Source: Tilletiopsis washingtonensis
Taxonomy: Eukaryota > Basidiomycota > Exobasidiomycetes > Entylomatales
Assembly (NCBI RefSeq): GCF_003144115.1
Contig: NW_020312023.1
Coordinates: 166,704 to 230,703, forward strand
Direction: 5' to 3'
Length of the DNA stretch: 64,000 bases
Shown: positions 11,363 through 21,860 of the stretch, one piece after another
Position numbering within the stretch: position 1 is the first letter of the stretch
How the letters are laid out: each line of letters begins with the position of its first letter
The notes under the pieces: model-generated
Database searches by the model: none
What the model was told of the DNA's origin: nothing
What the model saw: the letters and a program-made list of their open reading frames with translations, nothing else
Position numbers and translations under genes: made by a program

Positions 11363-13168
11363 ATGCATGCGAAGCGTCTAGCTGAGCACGGTGGAGCGCG
11401 CCCGGCGAAGATGATTGATTGAACGGCATCGAGAGGAGGGCAGCGAGCTCATCACGTCTTGAGCGCGAGAGGGAGTGAAGGAGGGAAGCGAGAGCAGAGG
11501 GGACCAAATGTCAGCGATGCATGCACGTCCAGCGCCCCGCCGTCGTCCCGTGCCGCCATCTGCCCTGCAGCGCTGCATGATCGCAGCGCTGCATCTGCTG
11601 CCCGCACGCCTCATGTTCTGCCGGACTCCGGCTCGCTGATCCCCGTCGTGTCTCTCTGCCGCAGCGTGGCGGCTGTGGGCGGCGCGTTGCCTTGCCACAC
11701 GGCGAGCTGAACGTCGGCGCCGGACGCGGCGCCACGCTGTCCAAGGCGTCGGCGTGTGCCTGCCCGACGCCGTGCGGCGAGACCTCTGGAGAGGCGCTGG
11801 CGCTGCGCCCGCACCTCGAGGCACGCTAAGACGCGTCTCAGAGGCGGCGAAAGCGCACAGCCGCAGCGGCATGGGAGCCTGCCGCCTGCCGTCTGAGCGC
11901 CGAGACGTGCTCTCTCGGCCTCCCCGCGGCGGCCGCGTGGACGCGCTAACGACGACGCGCCGAGCCGAGAAGGCGGCAAGGCGGCTGAGCTGCAGTCGAG
12001 TGGGATCGTCGGGAGCGGGAGCTCCGACTCGACTTGTCGCCCCCAGAGCGAGAGAGAGGCACGTCGAGAGGCGCGTGGTGCCGTGTATGCGTTGCCGCTG
12101 CACGGACGCCGGGCGCTGCAGCTGGCGGTGCTTGTGCCGCACGAGCTCCGCTGCTGCCGCTCCAGCGTCCCGCACCCATCACCCCTCTTCTCCTTCCCCT
12201 CTCTCTTCCCTCATTCGGGTCTCTCTCCTTGCCCTCGGACGCGCAATTCTTCCATCTCGTCCGTCTCTCGCCTGGCGCCTCTCCGCTCTTCGCCGGCGCT
12301 CGCTCGCTCGCTTTCGCATTCTCCGCTGCGCGGGCTCTACTCTGCAGCTGCATCTCGACTCTCTCTCCCCGGAAGACTCTGGCAGTCTCATCCCCGCTGG
12401 ATCCCCTTGCCCGTCCGTCTCTTGTAGGGGCCGTGTCGCCACGTGTGAGTGCCAGGGCTGCGAGCACGTGCGGCTTCCGTGCGGGACACCTCGGCAGCAG
12501 CGGCGTCTCCGATCCCAATCGAGGGCGCAGCCGAGCTCGGGAGCCGCGGTTGCCGGAATCAGAATGGCGAGCTCCATTTGGGATGGGCGCAAGGACTCCG
12601 CTGCACTTCGCGCTGGACAGGAGAGAGCGAGGGGCTATCATCGGTGTGGGTCAGAGCTAGGCCGAGGCGCGACGTCGTGCTCGCTCGAGTCGCGCCGCCT
12701 CAAAGCGCGTCCGACCTCGATCACAACCACGGCTCTCTGGTGGGCTGCACAAGAGCATGTCGCTCGCTGCAGCTCGTCGCGACCGTCTGCTGGACGTGCG
12801 AGAGACCCATGGCTGGCGGCTCAGGGCGCGGCATGAGCGCCACGCCGCCGCCCGAGGCGCAAGGGCACTTTGCGGCGCCAATCAGGCCGCTCCTGAAGCA
12901 CCACACTGCCGGCGTGCGTGGTGCCTGCTGCGCCAAATACGTACCAAGGCACACGGAGGGGGCGCTTCGCTGGCGTCAGAGCCGCCGCCGGCTGGCCAGC
13001 AGCGCGTCGCCGCTCTCGCCCACGCCCGGATCTCGGTGCCCGCACCTCTTAAGCAGAGCCGCTGCTGCTGCCACCTTCCCTCTCGCCATCTCCTTCTCGC
13101 TGACGTCCTCTCTCCCGTTCTTGTTTCACTCCTTGCCTTCCTCTTCCCTTCGTCGCACTTCACCACCC
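11363..13168. other. 1.8-kb leader/promoter region of the RRM gene
   Basis: No gene was recognised. The RRM frame stays open upstream as far as 12449, but the sequence there lacks domain content. Pyrimidine-rich tracts at about 12180-12260 and about 13085-13168 look like promoter or 5' leader sequence, and the second leads straight into the ATG. Spliced leader exons are possible but cannot be placed. Confidence 0.45.
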
Positions 13169-15725
13169 ATGCGCAACATGCCTGCGTCGACGCCCGACAT
13201 CATGGGCGCCACGGCCGCGCTCAGCAAGGTCTCGCTCGACGGCGCGAGTGCTGAGCAGCTCAAGACTCCGCGTGCCGCGCCGAGCGCCGCCGCCGCCGCT
13301 CCTCCGCAGGTGCCAGTCTCGGGCCCGGGCCTGGTCGACAACAACTTTGCGCTGCGCCAGCTGCTCTTCCACGTCAACCCATTCCTCGCCGAGATGATGA
13401 AGCGCACGAGCTCGCAGTCGTACGACGCCTCGCCCGCCGTGCTGGCGGCGCCCGGCGGCGCGGGCAACGGCTCGCTCGACCCGCTCGGCCAGGCGGCCCT
13501 GCCGAGCAGCCTTGCCGACGGCATCAACAAGAAGGCGCGCTTCGTCTCCGAGGGCCACGTGCCCGCCTTCAACTACCCAACGTCGGCGCCGGCCAGCCAG
13601 ACGTTTGGCGACCTCTCGCCGGGCGTGCAGCATGCCAACCTGTACTCGCAGCAGCAACAGCAGCAGCAGGGCGGCAACCGCAGCATCTCGCTCGGCATGA
13701 TGGGCCTCTCGACTGGCGGCCAGACGCCCGGCGCGCCCGCGCCGAGCTCGCCGTTCGTGCAGCACGCCTACGCGCCGGCGCCGCTGAACCTGGCGTCGAA
13801 CAACGCGCTCATGGGCGGCCTCAACGGCGGCGCCTTTAGCCCGCTCAGCGCCGGCCCGCAGTCGGTCTCCTACCTCATGCCGGGCATGCCGGGCCACGAG
13901 CAGCAGCAACAGCAGCAGGCGCAGCTGCAGTCGCCCATGAGCGCCATGAGCGCCATGTACGCCAACTTTTCGCCGGGCGCCTTCGGCGCCAGCCCGGGCC
14001 TGGGCCAGTTTGTGCCGAACATGGGCATGATGTCTGCGCCGCCGCAGGGCAACCAGACGGGGCGCACCGTCTACGTGGGCAACCTGCCCGCCGACGCGTC
14101 CGTCGATGAACTGCTCAACCAGGTCAAGTTTGGGCCCATCGAAAACGTGCGCATCCTGGCCGAGAAGAACTGCGCCTTCATCTCGTTCCTCGACGGCGGC
14201 ACGGCCGCGGCCTTCCACGCCGACGCGTCGGTCAAGAAGATGTCGCTGCACAACCAGGAGCTCAAGATCGGGTGGGGCAAGCCGTCGACGTGCCCCACGC
14301 CCGTCGCCATGGCCGTGCAGCAGAGCCAGGCCACGCGCAACGTGTACCTGGGCCAGCTCGACGAGAGCGTCACGGAGCAGTCGCTGCGCGACGATCTCTC
14401 GCGCTTCGGGCCCATCGACCAGGTCAAGATTGTGCGCGACAAGAACATTGGCTTCGTGCACTTCCTCTCCATCACCACCGCCATGAAGGTCGTCGCGACG
14501 CTGCCGACGGAGCCGGCGTGGACGGGCAAGCGCGTCAACTACGGCAAGGACCGCTGCGCGTACGTGCCGCGCAGCCAGCAGCAGAACCAGCAGCACAACA
14601 ACCAGGCCGCGGCCATGGGCATGGCGGCCGCGGCGTCGCTCGGCTACCCGACGGCCTTCAGCGCCACGTCCGTCGGCTTTCCCGGCATGCCCAACGCGGC
14701 GTTTGGCGCCCTCGGTCCCGCCAGCGCGCCGCCGGGCATGGGCTTCGGCCTCGGCATGCCCTCGAGCGCCAACGCCGAGGAGCAGGCGCGTTCGGCGTCG
14801 AGCGGCTCGGCCTTTGGCGTTGCAGCTGCGGCGATGCTCGGCGGCGGCGCCAATGCGGCGCCCAACTCGACGGCCCTCTCGCAGATCGGCAACCGCACCG
14901 TCTACCTCGGCAACATTCACCCCGAGACGACGACCGAGGAGATCTGCAACCACGTGCGCGGCGGCATTTTGCAGAACGTGCGCTACATTGCCGAGAAGCA
15001 CATTGCCTTCCTCACCTTTGTCGACGCCAACACGGCGCTGGCCTTCTTCCATCTCGCGTCCTACTCGGGCGTCATGATCCACAACCGCCGCCTCAAGATC
15101 GGCTGGGGCAAGCACTCGGGCCCGCTCAGCCCGGCCATCGCCATGGCCGTGCAGGCGGGCGGCAGCCGCAACGTGTACGTCGGCAACATCGAGAATGCCG
15201 ACGTGCTCAACGACGAGAAGCTGCGGCGCGACTTTGGCGAGTATGGCGAGATTGAGCTCGTCAACAGCCTGCGGGAGAAGAACTGCGTGAGTGAGAAGAT
15301 GCTGCGAGCCTGCGCGCGCAAAGCTGACACTGCTCGCTCCAGGCGTTTGTCAACTTCTGCAACATCCAAAACGCCATCAAGGCCATCGAGGCGATGAAGA
15401 ACCACCCGGACTACCAGACGTGTCGCATCGCCTACGGCAAGGACCGGTGAGTGTGGCGTGCCACCTCGAGCACACCTCAGCGCAGCTGCTCACACACACG
15501 CACAGATGCGGCAACCCGCCGCGCAGCGTCACGCAGACGCTCAACGCCGGCGGCGCACGCAAGGCCAGCGGCTCCATGTCGCCCAACCCCAACGCCGGCG
15601 GCGCAGACGACTCGATCATCTCCATCGCCACGGACGCCGGCACGGCGCACGAGGCGGACGCTGCGCCGGCAGTCGCTTCGGGCGTCGTCGGCAGCGCAGA
15701 CGCCGAGGCCAAGGCCGATGCGTGA
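13169..15725 (+). CDS. MRN1: four-RRM RNA-binding protein of the Mrn1/Nrd1 family
   Basis: Three exons: 13169-15286, 15343-15446, 15506-15725. They total 2442 nt, 813 aa. The start is the first ATG after the pyrimidine-rich leader; a second ATG lies four codons on. The N-terminal 290 residues are low complexity with two Gln runs (about 13650 and 13900). Four RRMs begin near residues 298 (RTVYVGNLP), 389 (RNVYLGQLD), 575 (RTVYLGNIH) and 665 (RNVYVGNIE). K-I-G-W-G-K closes RRM1 and RRM3, and Y-G-K-D-R-C closes RRM2 and RRM4, a pattern typical of yeast Mrn1 and fission yeast Nrd1. Family members bind mRNAs and control differentiation, stress granules and chromatin-linked phenotypes. The tail is Ala/Asp-rich. 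RRM4 is interrupted by both introns. Confidence 0.92.
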
Positions 15726-15952: not shown

Positions 15953-17311
15953 CTAGAAGAAGCTGCGCACCTGTGCGAGAGTGTCAGCGAGCGTCTGCCG
16001 CGGCGATGCGCGGTGAGCGACGCACCTCGTTGATGATCTCCTCCGGACGCTCCTCTGGGATGTAGTGCCCACTCTCCGTGGCGTGGCCATCGACATCGAC
16101 GCACGCCTCTTTCCACAGCTCCAGGCCATTGAAGAGCGAGCCAATGATGCCCTTTGCGCCCCACAGCACGCGAGTCTGGCGCAGGCAGCATCAGCACAAG
16201 CCTCATCAGCATCGGGCCTCTGGCAACGCACCGGCGTCTGCACCTTGCGTCCCGCCTCGCGGTCCTTGCGGTCCAGCTCGAGGTCGGGCCCGAGCGGCGA
16301 CGAGGCACGGTAGTCCTCGGCCATGGCGTGTGCGTGTTCCCAGGATCCGACAGAGGCGACATACGTGGCAATGACGTCGGGCGAGAAGACGGCCTCGCTG
16401 CCGGGCCGCAGCACCATCTGCCGCTGGATGTACGCCTCGGGCGCGCCGGTGACTGGGAGCAGGGCTCAGTGCGTGGAATGTGAGGAAGCCGTCCTACTCA
16501 CTCAGTCCCTCTCTGTCGAGCAGCCAGCGGTCAGCACGGAATGGAGAGGTCAGGGATGCCTGTCTGCTCACGGAAGGCCAAACGGCTGGATGAGCATGAA
16601 CCAATGGTAGTAGTAGCCCGCGAAGCGCACGTCGGTCTGCGAGAAGATCAGCAGTCCGCCATCGCCTGGTCCCGCTGGACTCGCACCTTCTCGTACATCG
16701 GCTGCCGGATAGCGCTGTCAGCAAGGCACAACAGTCTGCGGGCATGCCGCTCACCAGCGTGGGTGCAATGTCCAGCAGAATCATCTTCTTGACCGCCTCG
16801 GGGTGGTCCAGGCTCAGGCGGTGCGCCACACGTGCGCCGCGGTCGTGTGCCACGACCCAGAACGACTCGTGGCCGTAGTGCTTCATGACCTCGATACAGT
16901 CGCGCGCCATCTCGCGCTCTGGTAAGGAGCTCTCAGCAGCACATCGCAGAGGCTGGGACTCGCGCACTTACTGCTGTAGCGCCACTTGCCCTCCTCGGCC
17001 GGCGGCTCGTCCTTTCCATCACGCGTGCGGACCGGCGGCGCATCACTGCCGCCATGACCGCGCAAGTCCATCGCCACAACGTGCCAGCCGTCATCCACCA
17101 GCGCCGGCGCCACATCGCGCCAGATGATGCTAGACTGCGGGTGGCCGTGCAGCAGCAGCAGTGGGCGTGCGCCCGGCTTGCGCCCAGAGTGGTGCACCAT
17201 GACGCGCAGCTTGAGCGACGGGTCGAGATCGGAAGGCGGAATCGTCACGCGCTCGACGACGAAGGGCGTGCGCAGCCCGGTGAGCGCATCGGTCGCGGCA
17301 ATGGCAGTCAT
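15953..17311 (-). CDS. alpha/beta hydrolase, haloacetate (fluoroacetate) dehalogenase / epoxide-hydrolase type
   Basis: Eight exons: 17311-16972, 16918-16755, 16701-16687 (15 nt), 16636-16572, 16512-16502 (11 nt), 16452-16232, 16175-16026, 15970-15953. They total 984 nt, 327 aa. Visible motifs are HGHPQSS (oxyanion loop), DLRGHGGSD, the nucleophile D139 in H-D-R-G-A-R, LDIAPT followed by MYEK, YYYHWFMLIQP in the cap, and the base H309 in SGHYIPEE near the end. D-R-G-x-R and G-H-[FY]-x-P-E-E are characteristic of fluoroacetate dehalogenases, although the real substrate may be another haloacid or ester. The two micro-exons restore exactly the residues expected in the family (P-M-Y-E-K and the junction P-E-G-L-I-T). 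No targeting signal; probably cytosolic. Confidence 0.85.
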
Positions 17312-17733
17312 GGCGGCGCGAAAGGTAGTGGTGTGCGGGAAGCAGGATGTGCGCGCGCGCATCTCGGCATCGGCTCACAACGTCGCGCCGGCCCGCTCCT
17401 CCACCTCGACGCGAAGTGCGGGGAAGCGGCGCGTGGCCTGTGCGCAGCATGCACCGACATCCGTGCCGCTCAACCACGACGACGAGCAAGATCATCCCTG
17501 ACGTAGCGAAGGACTGCAGCCGCGGCATCTTACCACGACAGCTCAAATCTGTCAGCACCGCCAGCGCACGGCTAAGCATGGTCACATTGAGGCGCGCACT
17601 GTGCGCGAAGGTGCTGGGTACGAGAAGAGCGGACCGGGCTGCGATGACGGGGCCAGAAGCGGGCCGCACGTGGTGATGAGACGAGAGTTGAGAGTCCTGT
17701 GCGGCTTGCGAGCGCTCGACAGCAGCTGGGTAG
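17312..17733. other. intergenic between hydrolase promoter and the orphan Ubl exon
   Basis: This includes the hydrolase 5' side and the 3' flank of the orphan exon. A longer minus-strand frame runs through, but only as an upstream extension of the hydrolase frame and unrelated shadows. I see nothing else here. Confidence 0.35.
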
Positions 17734-17802
17734 CTAGAGCTCGAAGGTGATGACGAGCACGCCGTCGGACTCGTTGCCGGCCTGCGACACCTCGTTGAGG
17801 AG
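17734..17802 (-). other. orphan fifth Ubl-type terminal exon, lacking the Cys tail
   Basis: A 22-codon frame with TAG at 17734-17736 begins after a C-A-A-G acceptor with CTC CTC, exactly as in the four neighbouring Ubl genes. It starts L-L-N-E-V-S-Q-A-G and ends D-G-V-L-V-I-T-F-E-L, stopping where its relatives add C-x-C-G-C. No beta-grasp exon 1 is visible between it and the gene A stop at 18085. A GTGAGTGGC donor at 18056 (same string as the gene A donor) follows a short ATG-started frame (18083-18057) in matching phase. It may be an alternative 3' exon of gene A or the remnant of a fifth copy. Confidence 0.5.
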
Positions 17803-18084
17803 CTTGCGGCGAATGCGAAGTGTGAGCTCATGAGCAAGTGCGAGGCGACGCGAGCCACCACACAGGAGCCTCAAGTGTCAACAAGCCAGCGCAGCTGGCC
17901 GGCGGCCAGCTCGTCCTCGATACGCTCTGCTGCTTCTCGCGCAGCGCCGACTGCGACGAGCACGACGCAGCAGCAGGCATGCTCTACGACGCAGCTCGGC
18001 ATTCCCGTTCCCCATCAAGAGCGGCAGCAGTGAAGCACAGCAACACAGCCACTCACGTATCCAAGTGGCGCCGAGAGGAACATC

Positions 18085-18643
18085 TTAGCATCCGCACAGG
18101 CAGACGATGGCGTCGATCACAATACGGCCCCACCGATCAAGACCTCGGCCTGCGGCCTTCTCGTACAGGAGCTTGTAGTCGAGAGTGAGGTCTTCGGGTC
18201 AGCTAACAGTCAGGTGCCAAGGGTGGCTCTCCCCACAGCACGCGCATGCCAATGGCGAGTGTGCGCGATGCTGATCCCCGTCGCACGGCTGCTGCGCCCA
18301 AGCCGCCACGTTCTGTGCGACCCTTCAATGCAACTCTGCAGACAGCGACCGCTCCCGTCCGCCCTAGCGAGAGGACTTCCTTCAAACAATTGCTGCGCAA
18401 GCCACTCACATATTCGCCCGTGATCTCATCGGCGAGGCCATGGCCGTGGTGAATGAGACGAATCTGGTTCACAGGTACGTGTTGCCACTCGCCGTACGCG
18501 GCGCGGAGCTCGCCGATGGTAGAGCTCTTCGTGATTTTGAAGGAAGGTTCCGAGCCAGTGTGGGTTACGATCACGACCTTGAAGCTTTCGGCTCGTGCGG
18601 CTGCGAGCGACTCCGCGTTGGCGGTCGTGGGCGCGGCGGGCAT
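18085..18643 (-). CDS. small SUMO/ubiquitin-like protein A with C-terminal CLCGC
   Basis: Two exons: 18643-18410 (78 codons) and 18171-18085, separated by a 238-nt phase-0 intron (GTGAGT donor; GCTGAC branch; ACTACAAG acceptor). The protein is 106 aa. Residues 21-72 form a Rad60-SLD/SUMO-like beta-grasp: F-K-V-V-I-V-T, then F-K-I-T-K-S-S-T-I-G-E-L-R-A-A-Y, then Q-I-R-L-I-H-H-G-H. Exon 2 encodes the final helix and strand and ends I-V-C-L-C-G-C-stop. SUMO has Gly-Gly here, so classical conjugation is not expected. Three terminal cysteines could bind metal or be lipidated; C-G-C is a C-x-C end like Rab GTPases. No signal peptide. It is the last intact member of the array, with the orphan exon downstream. 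Confidence 0.78.
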
Positions 18644-19310
18644 GGCGAAGATAAGAGGGGTGTGGGCAGGTGTGGTGCGTAGAGGCGTGGCCAGCGGCGC
18701 TGGTGAGGATGGTGGTGGTGGGACAGCAAGAGGCTGTCGCCTCGTTGCGAAGGGTCTCGTCACTCTGCGCTGCCACATGCTGCTCGGGACTCAGGGCGTA
18801 AAGTGCCAAAAGGGGCAGCTCTTGGACGCGCGTCATCCCGACGCGCGGCGCGCATCGCGACCCCTAGCCGCCGCCCTCTCTCCAGCGTGCAGCTCTGGGC
18901 TCAAACTCTCTCACCTGCCTGGCTTGAGCATTGAGGCTGATGCCTCATGTTCCTCTGGAGCTCCTTGCTCTGATCTTTGCTCTCTCGGTCTTTGCGCAGC
19001 AGAGTAGACCGCGAGCGAAAGCTCACCACATCTGTGCTCGTGATGCACTCCGAGTGCGAGCAGACGTCTCAAGCCTTGATGGCGGCCGCCTGCCACCTCA
19101 CCCAGGACACAGGCACGTTGTAGGTACGTCGAGTAAAGAGAGAGCGAAAACAGTGGAGTGGAGCGTCATGACATTGGGTGACAGACTCGAGCTCGAGGGC
19201 TTAGAGGAAAGGAGAAGAGCTAGCTGGGTCGTGACGATGGGGACGGGAGCGGAACAGAGCGCCGAGCTGACGACGGCTGCCGTGGACTTGCTCGGCTCGA
19301 ATCGACGCCC

Positions 19311-19808
19311 TCAGCAGCCGCACATGCACAGTACGGCGTAGATCGTGATTGCATCGTCGCCCTGCGCCAAGTCTCCGATCTGCCAGCGGACGAGGTGCGT
19401 GAGCTCACGAGCAGAGGCGAGAGGCAAACCACGCGGCTCAAGTCGTTCAGCAGCGCAGTGTGAGCGTTCAGATACAGACTAGAAGCGCCGACGAGCGGAT
19501 CTCTGCTCCTGGCTGGCTTGGTTGCACGTGCACCTGACTCGATACGAGACTCGCGTCGCAAGGAACAGATCAGCCCTGCTCACCTTGTCCATCATCTCAT
19601 CGTCCTGGATGCGTCGGCCGTCGTGCACAAGACGCAGTTGGTCCGTCGGAATGCCAGTGTGCTCGCTGAAGCGACGGCGAAACTTGCCGACTGAGGCGCG
19701 CTTAGAGGCGTTGAAGTGGTAGGTGCTGCCAGTCATGGTCTTGACCGTCACGATCACCGTGTCGGCCGACTCGGCCTCGAGCGACGTGCCGGACTTGCGG
19801 ACGCCCAT
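19311..19808 (-). CDS. small SUMO/ubiquitin-like protein B with C-terminal CMCGC
   Basis: Two exons: 19808-19584 (75 codons) and 19403-19311, with a 180-nt phase-0 intron (GTGAGC donor, GCTGAAC branch, CTCGTGAG acceptor). The protein is 105 aa. The beta-grasp is clear: V-I-V-T-V-K-T-M-T-G, then S-K-R-A-S-V-G-K-F-R-R-R-F, then T-D-Q-L-R-L-V-H-D-G-R-R-I, which is very SUMO-like around the D-G-R-x-I turn. It ends A-V-L-C-M-C-G-C-stop with no diglycine. An in-frame upstream acceptor (TTCTAG) could lengthen exon 2 by 25 codons; the shorter form matches the intron position of its paralogues. The N-terminus M-G-V-R-K-S fits an N-myristoylation context (Gly2, Ser6). Confidence 0.76.
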
Positions 19809-20052
19809 CTTGGCCGTGGCGAAAGCTTGAGGAGAGAAGAGCGCTAGGCAGTTGGCCGGCTGCGCAGACGGCCGCGCGCTCGTGGTGGTGGGAAGGAAAG
19901 CGCCGCCGCCCGTCTCGACACGCGCGGCCCCGCGCGCGCGGCGAGGCTGACCTGGCTGAAGCGGAGTAGGCGAATCTGTGCATCATCTGTCGACAGCTCA
20001 CAAGGCTAGCGGACCACGAGAGCTGAAGCCATCGCTTCGGCTGCTCAAGCAC

Positions 20053-21168
20053 GGCTCACGCAAATCGGCAACATCAGCGAGAGAGGGGATCAGGCTGAGA
20101 GTGTGGAAGTGCGTCGTGACATTGGTGACACAGGCTCAATTGTGAGCGCGACGCACGAGAAGAGGAGCGGTGCGTCGTGAGATGGGGCTGAAGCGAAGGC
20201 GAGGAGGTGCCGGTGTTGAAGATCGAGGCCTTGGAGACCATCTCGCGCGGCAGGCGAGCACTAGCATCCGCACATGCACTTCATAACGTCAAGCCTGTAG
20301 ACACCGTCCGAGTCAGGACCTTCATCGTGCTCGCGCGCGTCGTCAAGTAGCTTGAACAGAGAAGGAAAGTCAGCCACTGCGCGGCAAACGGCCAAGAAAG
20401 CGAGGCGTGCCGGAACAGTCAGAGGCGCTACGATCACCACACAGCTCGTCGAGCCACGAGACGACCTGGCACAGGAAGCCATCGCAATTCCCGCTCCACC
20501 CACGCCGTCCGGCTTGATCTCGCCCGCAAGCTCGTGACTCACGGTCTGAACAGTCTCGTGCTCCTGGCAGCGGCGGCCGTCGTCGAAGATCCTGAGGCGG
20601 CCGCCCCACCCGTCGCTGGCTCCGAACATCTGTCCGAGCCTGCTGATGGACGTCGCCGTGCACACTGTGTAGACGTACGAGCGGCCGCTCGCGCAGTCGA
20701 CCATCTTGATCTTGAGCTTCTCGAGCTTCTGGGCCTCGACCATGGCGCCGGCGTTGCGAACGCCCATGCTGGACGGCTTGCGGGAGGGAGGTGTGGAGAG
20801 CTGGGTGTGAGAGCTGAGCGTGCAGGCGGTGCTGCGGGATGCGGGGGCTCGTGGTCGGGAAGCAGGAGCTGGCGCCAGCGCATCGCAAGCAAGCCTCCTT
20901 CTCGTGTGTCACACCCTCTTCAGCAAGCATCGAGGTGGAGGACTCGACTACAAAGCGAAACTGAATACGGCTGCGCGCGGCGGCCGCCGGCACCTGCACC
21001 GCAACGTGACGACCGCTCGATGAGCAGAGAGCGGCATCACAGAGGCCGGCCTGAGCCTCATCTGTGCAAATTTCCCATCTCCTCAACCTCAGCCATTCCA
21101 AGTCGCTGTGTCCTTCGCTTCGGCCACACAAGGCGCTCACGCAAGTCACAAGATCAGCAAGCGAGAGC
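20053..21168. repeat. diverged duplicated spacer blocks upstream of Ubl genes B and C
   Basis: Related strings lie about 250 and 370 nt upstream of B and C. 20053-20086 reads GGCTCACGCAAATCGGCAAC and onward; 21132-21168 reads GGCGCTCACGCAAGTCACAA and onward. Both are preceded by CGCTTCGG and followed by a GAGAGTGTGG string. ATCTGTGC also recurs upstream of A, B and C. This supports segmental duplication of gene plus promoter rather than retroposition. The coordinates span both copies, not one continuous element. Confidence 0.5.
20261..20767 (-). CDS. small SUMO/ubiquitin-like protein C with C-terminal CMCGC
   Basis: Two exons: 20767-20543 (75 codons) and 20350-20261, with a 192-nt phase-0 intron (GTGAGT donor, CTGTTCAAG acceptor). 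The protein is 104 aa. It starts M-G-V-R like B. The fold is inferred from L-K-I-K-M-V-D, T-S-I-S-R-L-G-Q-M-F and L-R-I-F-D-D-G-R-R, followed by exon 2 (L-L-D-D-A-R to D-G-V-Y-R-L-D-V-M) and the tail K-C-M-C-G-C-stop. The intron is a multiple of three and free of stops, so an unspliced message would encode 168 aa, which explains the single uninterrupted frame seen here. Sequence identity to A and B is low outside the turn and the tail. Confidence 0.72.
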   Translation of the reverse strand: MGVRNAGAMVEAQKLEKLKIKMVDCASGRSYVYTVCTATSISRLGQMFGASDGWGGRLRIFDDGRRCQEHETVQTVSHELAGEIKPDGVGGAGIAMASCARSSRGSTSCVVIVAPLTVPARLAFLAVCRAVADFPSLFKLLDDAREHDEGPDSDGVYRLDVMKCMCGC

Positions 21169-21331
21169 CCTTTCGAGAGTGTGGCACGCGTGCTGACGTG
21201 ACGGGCTCGAACTGCTCGCGCAGGCACAGGAGGAGACTGAAGAGCGAGACGGGTGATGACCAGAGCAGGAGCGGTACTATCTGCGTTGGAAGTCGAGGGC
21301 TGTGGAGCTCATTCGGCCCGATGGAAGAGCG

Positions 21332-21860
21332 CTAGCATCCGCACTGGCACTTCTGAAACCAGAGGGTCAAGGGCTGGTTGTACTCGTTGTCTTTGAGGAG
21401 CTTGTTTGAAGCAGTGTGTGAGCTTGCACTTCTTTAAGTCTAAGTCGAAAGTGGAAGCATGCGAGTGCATGTCCAAGGAGACCGCGGGCAAGGCCGCAGT
21501 ATGTATCCCAACGCACGATTGTGCGGGGCACCCACGTCCTGGCATCGACCAGCGGGCACGTCCTTCCCACGCCCGCGCTGGGTCGGACCTTCGAGAAGTG
21601 CCACGTCGAAGCTCTGGACTCACGTCTCCAACAGTAGCATCAGCCGCGGGGCGAGTCCCTTCAAAGCTGAGTTTGTAGCTCTTGCGGCCGGGGCCGTTGG
21701 GAGCGATGCCGAAGCGGACGGCCCACGCCTCGCCGATCTTGCTGACGAGAACCGACGCGCGAACTCGAAAGATCATGTGGTTGCCGTCTCCATCCTTCAC
21801 ATTGACTTCGAACCACTCAAGGGTATCAGGCATCGTAGCACCGGACACTTGCGTCGCCAT
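21332..21860 (-). CDS. small ubiquitin-like protein D with C-terminal CQCGC
   Basis: Two exons: 21860-21624 (79 codons) and 21400-21332, with a 223-nt phase-0 intron (GTGAGT donor, TTCAAACAAG acceptor). The protein is 101 aa, the most divergent member. The domain is read as W-F-E-V-N-V-K-D-G-D-G, then F-R-V-R-A-S-V-L-V-S-K-I-G-E-A-W, then Y-K-L-S-F-E-G-T-R. Exon 2 is the shortest (22 codons) and ends F-Q-K-C-Q-C-G-C-stop. The last codons and stop share the nucleotide string GTGCGGATGCTA (or one change from it) with A and C. It lies divergent to the 22531 gene across 670 bp. Confidence 0.7.

Follow-up and report, generated by a model that had tools for sequence, protein, structure and literature searches.

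The window analysed here, a stretch of 64,000 nucleotides from Tilletiopsis washingtonensis (positions 166704–230703 of contig 26, in a searched genome of 18.7 Mb and 32 contigs), holds an array of four consecutive two-exon genes, g1 to g4, on the minus strand between window positions 18085 and 21860. T. washingtonensis is a leaf-dwelling fungus, an exobasidiomycete of the Basidiomycota. The exons of g1 lie at 21624–21860, with the start codon at 21860, and at 21332–21400; those of g2 at 20543–20767 and 20261–20350; those of g3 at 19584–19808 and 19311–19379; and those of g4 at 18410–18643 and 18085–18171. The spliced proteins have 101, 104, 97 and 106 amino acids (aa), respectively, and the genes are spaced 0.96–1.17 kb from start to start. 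Each gene carries a single phase-0 intron of 192–238 nt, of the form GTGAG...AG. The original prediction of four such genes with the intron at a common point is therefore borne out; its spacing of about 1 kb becomes 0.96–1.17 kb, and its length range of 101–106 aa has to be widened to 97–106 aa.

Three of the splice models are identical to NCBI proteins, namely g1 (FA09DRAFT_162798, P0004), g3 (FA09DRAFT_332561, P0002) and g4 (FA09DRAFT_332560, P0001). The g2 model was built from a donor site and from homology to g3, and its spliced protein is absent from the seven proteins returned by our array protein search. The g2 intron (20351–20542, minus strand, 192 nt) has no in-frame stop. The environmental gene call P0003 (168 aa) continues across it and differs in a single residue. 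Retention of this intron would yield a 168-aa protein that keeps the CMCGC end, and P0003 has that form.

A β-grasp fold had been predicted for all four proteins. It is supported by the Pfam ubiquitin model for g3 and g4 (44.0 and 29.5 bits, against a cut-off of 25.4) and by AlphaFold2 models of g1 and g4, the two of the four proteins that were modelled. For g2, which has no Pfam match to the family, the assignment comes from a SUMO profile match and one weak PDB match to SUMO (E 0.19, the only row returned); the corresponding search with g1 was also weak and gave SUMO chains only (three of three rows, E 0.0097–0.08). The cut-off of Pfam Rad60-SLD (23.8) is passed by g3 (29.4), with g4 (23.6) and g1 (18.0) falling below it and g2 giving no match.

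Where the array had been described as ubiquitin- or SUMO-like, the data now point to SUMO. The genome's own SUMO gene (P0008; L009, on contig 6) encodes 98 aa ending GG-VRA and, across 97% of its length, is 87% identical to Ceraceosorus guamensis SUMO. Its intron is in phase 0 and follows DDDTAES, at the residue equivalent to that of the array introns. Of 98 SUMO matches, 26 are unspliced reads that enter the intron at the equivalent point, as found with a purpose-written pattern, and the intron is therefore common among these SUMOs. SUMO is also the best genome match outside the array for g1 (E 6.8e-6), g3 (9.3e-8) and g4 (1.7e-6); the genome search with g2 gave g3 as its sole match. A profile made from 63 of the 98 SUMO matches (85–125 aa, GG within the last 12 residues) recognised g3 at 3.2e-12, g4 at 4.5e-11, g1 at 1.2e-8 and g2 at 9.2e-7, with 0.046 for the best of 20 shuffles. 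A single ubiquitin sequence gave 4.9e-10 for g3, 1.6e-6 for g4, 0.046 for g1 and 0.16 for g2, the last two no better than shuffles; setting a profile beside a single sequence is an uneven comparison. The shared intron and the best sequence match, with the two fold models in support, indicate that g1–g4 derive from the SUMO gene of their own genome. The motif KDGDGN of g1 occurs in only three of the 98 SUMOs (those of T. washingtonensis and C. guamensis, and the environmental P0010), a hint that the array arose fairly recently. An origin from ubiquitin or NEDD8 was set aside, as the ubiquitin genes read (L001, L005) and the NEDD8-like gene (L067) have their intron elsewhere and the genome searches favour SUMO; the preference of Pfam for ubiquitin in g3 and g4 is weighed below.

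The conserved last residues mentioned in the original prediction form a cysteine tail, likely at the diglycine site, a point that it had not spelled out. None of the four proteins has a C-terminal GG or a ubiquitin-type LRLRGG end, and all finish in C-x-C-G-C: K-C-Q-C-G-C-stop in g1 (tail codons and stop at 21332–21349), K-C-M-C-G-C-stop in g2 (20261–20278), L-C-M-C-G-C-stop in g3 (19311–19328) and V-C-L-C-G-C-stop in g4 (18085–18102). The cysteines stand at positions −5, −3 and −1, with none at −4, so there is no CaaX box. In an alignment of three array proteins and the environmental relative P0007 with 12 SUMOs, IDAIV-CLCGC of g4 lies without a gap under IDAMV-EQLGG of SUMO. Those SUMO1 rows that extend to the C-terminus (2vrr, 4wjp, 1wyw, 2bf8) match C101 of g1 and C106 of g4 to SUMO1 residue 97, which we take to be the last glycine of SUMO1. 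The conjugating glycine thus seems to have been changed to cysteine, the last tail residue likely standing in its position; we say likely because model confidence is low at the C-terminus (49 at the last residue of g1, and a mean of 66 over residues 101–106 of g4).

None of the 98 SUMO matches ends in CxC, but GG is present near the end in only 69 of them; 12 end in a single C. Several SUMO precursors of smut fungi have a cysteine directly after the diglycine (GGC, GGHC). A genome scan with the tail pattern TGYNNNTGYGGNTGYTRR gave 41 matches; the reversed control gave 13. Of the 41 matches, 14 finish at a stop codon. Four of these are the array, and by eye no SUMO-like last exon was seen upstream of the other 10. 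The diglycine is essential for isopeptide conjugation of SUMO, according to the excerpts available of a published account (PMC6680281), and with its loss isopeptide conjugation of the array proteins is therefore very unlikely. Going by established SUMO chemistry, the E1/E2 cascade is very probably unable to attach them to other proteins. Overall, we are highly confident that the array is SUMO-derived and lacks the diglycine.

Strong divergence alongside this kept end had also been predicted, and is confirmed. Outside the last five columns, pairwise identity among the six pairs is 17–29%, yet four of the five tail columns are invariant compared to two of 86 other gap-free columns, Met1 excluded (Fisher p = 2.8e-5). 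Beyond the tail, the invariant columns are M1 and two glycines only. At the DNA level, alignments of the introns and of the 5′ flanks no longer stand out clearly from shuffles (z up to 2.1). Exon 1 gives a good alignment in just two pairs, g2/g3 and g3/g4 (z 17–18), with z 3.3 for g1/g2. The 3′ flank of g1 (20982–21331, minus strand) is alignable with that of g2 (19911–20260, minus strand) at z 18.0 against shuffles, and the g2 flank also with that of g3 (z 7.8). These flank and exon alignments indicate that whole units were duplicated. The 3′ flank of g4 has no partner in the array at z above 4.4; that g4 has nonetheless kept its tail speaks for selection on the tail and not for local copying. 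As a separate observation, the g1/g2 and g2/g3 3′ flanks (within 18961–21331, minus strand) align better than the introns and the 5′ flanks, and in the case of g1/g2 also better than exon 1. A conserved 3′ untranslated region, a regulatory element and gene conversion are candidate explanations.

A fifth, orphan exon had been proposed, and an exon-2-like stretch (LLNEVSQAGNESDGVLVITFEL) does lie at 17734–17802 on the minus strand. The acceptor in front of it reads AAG, as in g1, g2 and g4. DNA around this acceptor scores above all 200 shuffles against both g1 and g4, with 65 and 23 of 200 shuffles reaching the score against g2 and g3, respectively. The encoded protein resembles exon 2 of g2 (p = 0.001, 2000 shuffles) and has no clear match to the others (g1 0.057, g4 0.25, g3 0.59, SUMO 0.75). 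An exon 1 for it was looked for and not found, and it has no cysteine tail; the exon is likely the relic of a fifth unit. In principle, splicing from the donor at 18409 to the acceptor ahead of 17802 could join it in frame to g4 exon 1 and so produce a form of g4 that lacks the cysteine tail.

This relic raises the question of whether all four genes are SUMO duplicates drifting without function, on their way to the same loss. Among g1–g4, Nei–Gojobori (NG86) dN (0.64–1.17) is about as high as dS (0.77–1.83), although the values are saturated and the ratio is not reliable; the fifth unit is already down to one exon, and Arabidopsis is known to have tandem pairs that include SUMO pseudogenes (PMC6680281). 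Against such decay, all four frames are open with usable splice sites, and three of the four genes are annotated. The same tail type has been kept in all four despite introns and 5′ flanks that can no longer be aligned, core positions of the array proteins are hydrophobic at 19–20 of 23 (shuffle maxima 16–18), and P0007 retains an open exon 1. We consider decay improbable.

Instead, we propose a duplication of a SUMO (SMT3) gene in the T. washingtonensis lineage, followed by tandem expansion. The copies would have retained the two-exon structure and the β-grasp domain while diverging strongly and losing the C-terminal diglycine, which C-x-C-G-C would have replaced with its last cysteine at the position of the conjugating glycine. 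If no conjugation is possible, the array proteins most likely act non-covalently, perhaps as adaptors or decoys with a SUMO fold that are tethered to membranes through a lipid on the cysteine tail. Going by familiar motifs, this lipid may be added by Rab-type C-G-C prenylation, palmitoylation or both, as C-G-C at the extreme C-terminus is presumably a Rab-type CxC. The proteins g2 and g3, and likewise P0007, begin MGVR, which we take to fit the N-myristoylation pattern, and g2 and g3 may additionally be myristoylated there. Among 13 small-GTPase 3′ ends read in the T. washingtonensis genome, two are CNC, two CC/CCA, six CaaX boxes and three unclear, with no CGC. Taken as a whole, the explanation of tandem SUMO-derived copies that are not conjugated and are lipid-anchored by a cysteine tail is the one we favour, tentatively and at slightly less than an even chance. 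A broader proposal is that a conjugated modifier became tail-anchored through the change of its terminal glycine itself to cysteine, with fast tandem diversification, the SUMO fold serving as a variable recognition surface, and the mode of UBL3/MUB being reached independently in a single lineage; this we put forward as a possibility that is itself doubtful.

Several points weigh against lipid-anchored SUMO descendants. The Pfam ubiquitin model outscores Pfam Rad60-SLD for both g3 and g4, polyubiquitins, in which each repeat adds to the score, head the PDB rows for a profile of the array, and the fold comparison with the g4 model ties structures of ISG15, ubiquitin and SUMO. A tree of 24 of the 98 SUMOs, five array-type rows and one ubiquitin has long branches, gives no clear resolution and does not show the array as one clade. 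As to the anchor, which is predicted from motifs, the tail of g1–g4 is not of CaaX type, and prenylation of a Rab-type CxC end usually depends on the Rab fold and its escort protein. In addition, neither g1 nor g4 begins with Met-Gly.

The conservation of the tail in all four proteins would also suit thiol chemistry, with the CxCGC tail joined to partners by disulfides, as proposed for UBL3, or acting as a thiol-disulfide exchange tail on a SUMO fold. Modification by UBL3 needs its C-terminal cysteines, with a disulfide proposed, in the excerpted report (PMC6158211), and portions of another give Cys-Gly-Cys a redox potential like that of PDI, with CGC and RKCGC peptides as PDI mimics (PMC4316792). 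However, the cytosol is reducing, and UBL3 additionally requires the CaaX box that g1–g4 are without; we regard this explanation as unlikely. The three tail cysteines might also bind a metal (Zn or Cu), either within one molecule or between two paired ones, to give a metal-regulated SUMO-fold protein. A free end with three thiols in C-x-C-x-C spacing, unchanged across the four paralogs, would suit such a site, but no other Cys or His is conserved, and we think metal binding very unlikely.

The array proteins share with SUMO/SMT3 the β-grasp fold, an N-terminal extension of about 15–20 residues and the equivalent phase-0 intron, and find in it their best match outside the array; they differ in lacking the diglycine, in their C-x-C-G-C end and in their low mutual identity. 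They resemble UBL3/MUB as free-standing β-grasp proteins with no diglycine and a cysteine end. In the excerpted literature, UBL3 reaches membranes via a prenylated cysteine, and fungal UBL3s end in CCAAX or CXCAAX (PMC6158211, PMC10511055). Membership of g1–g4 in the UBL3 family was rejected, as they have no CaaX box and none of the four matches PF13881 at E up to 1. A PF13881 search of the T. washingtonensis genome came back empty, as did its controls, and the absence of UBL3 from the best 50 rows of the Foldseek (pdb_via) fold comparison for the g1 and g4 models excludes nothing. Because there is no CaaX box or PF13881 match, and the intron and sequence are of SUMO type, the likeness to UBL3/MUB is at most convergent. 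If lipid-anchored, the array proteins would be a SUMO-derived counterpart of prenylated UBL3/MUB, which supply a precedent for such an anchor. SUMO-like domains of Rad60, Esc2 and NIP45 are SUMO folds that are not conjugated and lie inside larger proteins, unlike g1–g4, which are free-standing genes with cysteine tails.

With the g1–g4 proteins as queries, no further array copies were found in the T. washingtonensis genome, searched exon by exon and with only the best candidates considered. The wider protein search returned seven proteins from 220 candidates, and the g3 search three of three. The former used no more than 100 words for all four proteins together and may overlook distant relatives. 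The original prediction had named the same array in relatives as support; once the proteins of the array and their read-throughs are set aside, the sole distinct relative among the proteins returned is the environmental exon 1 P0007. It differs from g3 exon 1 (19584–19808) at 24 of 75 residues, the first 18 being identical and all differences falling in the next 57, an uneven pattern that suggests constraint at the N-terminus and fast change in the core. Exon 1 of the environmental SUMO P0010, which may stem from another organism than P0007, differs from T. washingtonensis SUMO at two of 77 residues. The array's neighbours are an RRM protein (12449–15397, plus strand) and a two-exon alpha/beta hydrolase (Abhydrolase_1; 16494–17374, minus strand), with no evident link to it. 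A search of Rfam gave a single sub-threshold match, taken as chance.

The original prediction knew of no described family of this kind, a claim that holds for the combination of features and not for its parts. Excerpts of work on Brassicaceae describe tandem SUMO duplicates (SUMO2/3, SUMO4/6, SUMO7/8) that are diverging and partly termed pseudogenes, and a separate putative SUMO5 pseudogene with no diglycine (PMC6680281). The array resembles these in the tandem duplication and divergence of SUMO copies; the Brassicaceae duplicates are plant genes in pairs, and the same excerpts do not describe a shared cysteine tail (PMC6680281). Among the open-licence papers listed, we found no prenylated or tandem fungal SUMO and no combination of tandem SUMO with a cysteine tail, and the best 10 of 7,163 papers matched for SUMO and ubiquitin-like proteins of Tilletiopsis include none with Tilletiopsis. 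In short, tandem SUMO duplicates and cysteine-tailed ubiquitin-like proteins are known separately, and their combination was not found there.

High conservation is the usual state of SUMO. In the present case a conserved SUMO, as close to that of C. guamensis as noted above, shares its genome with four diglycine-less descendants that are 17–29% identical to one another outside the tail and have a common cysteine tail. If functional, the array would be a natural experiment on a SUMO fold freed from conjugation, and would represent a second origin of cysteine-tailed ubiquitin-like proteins.

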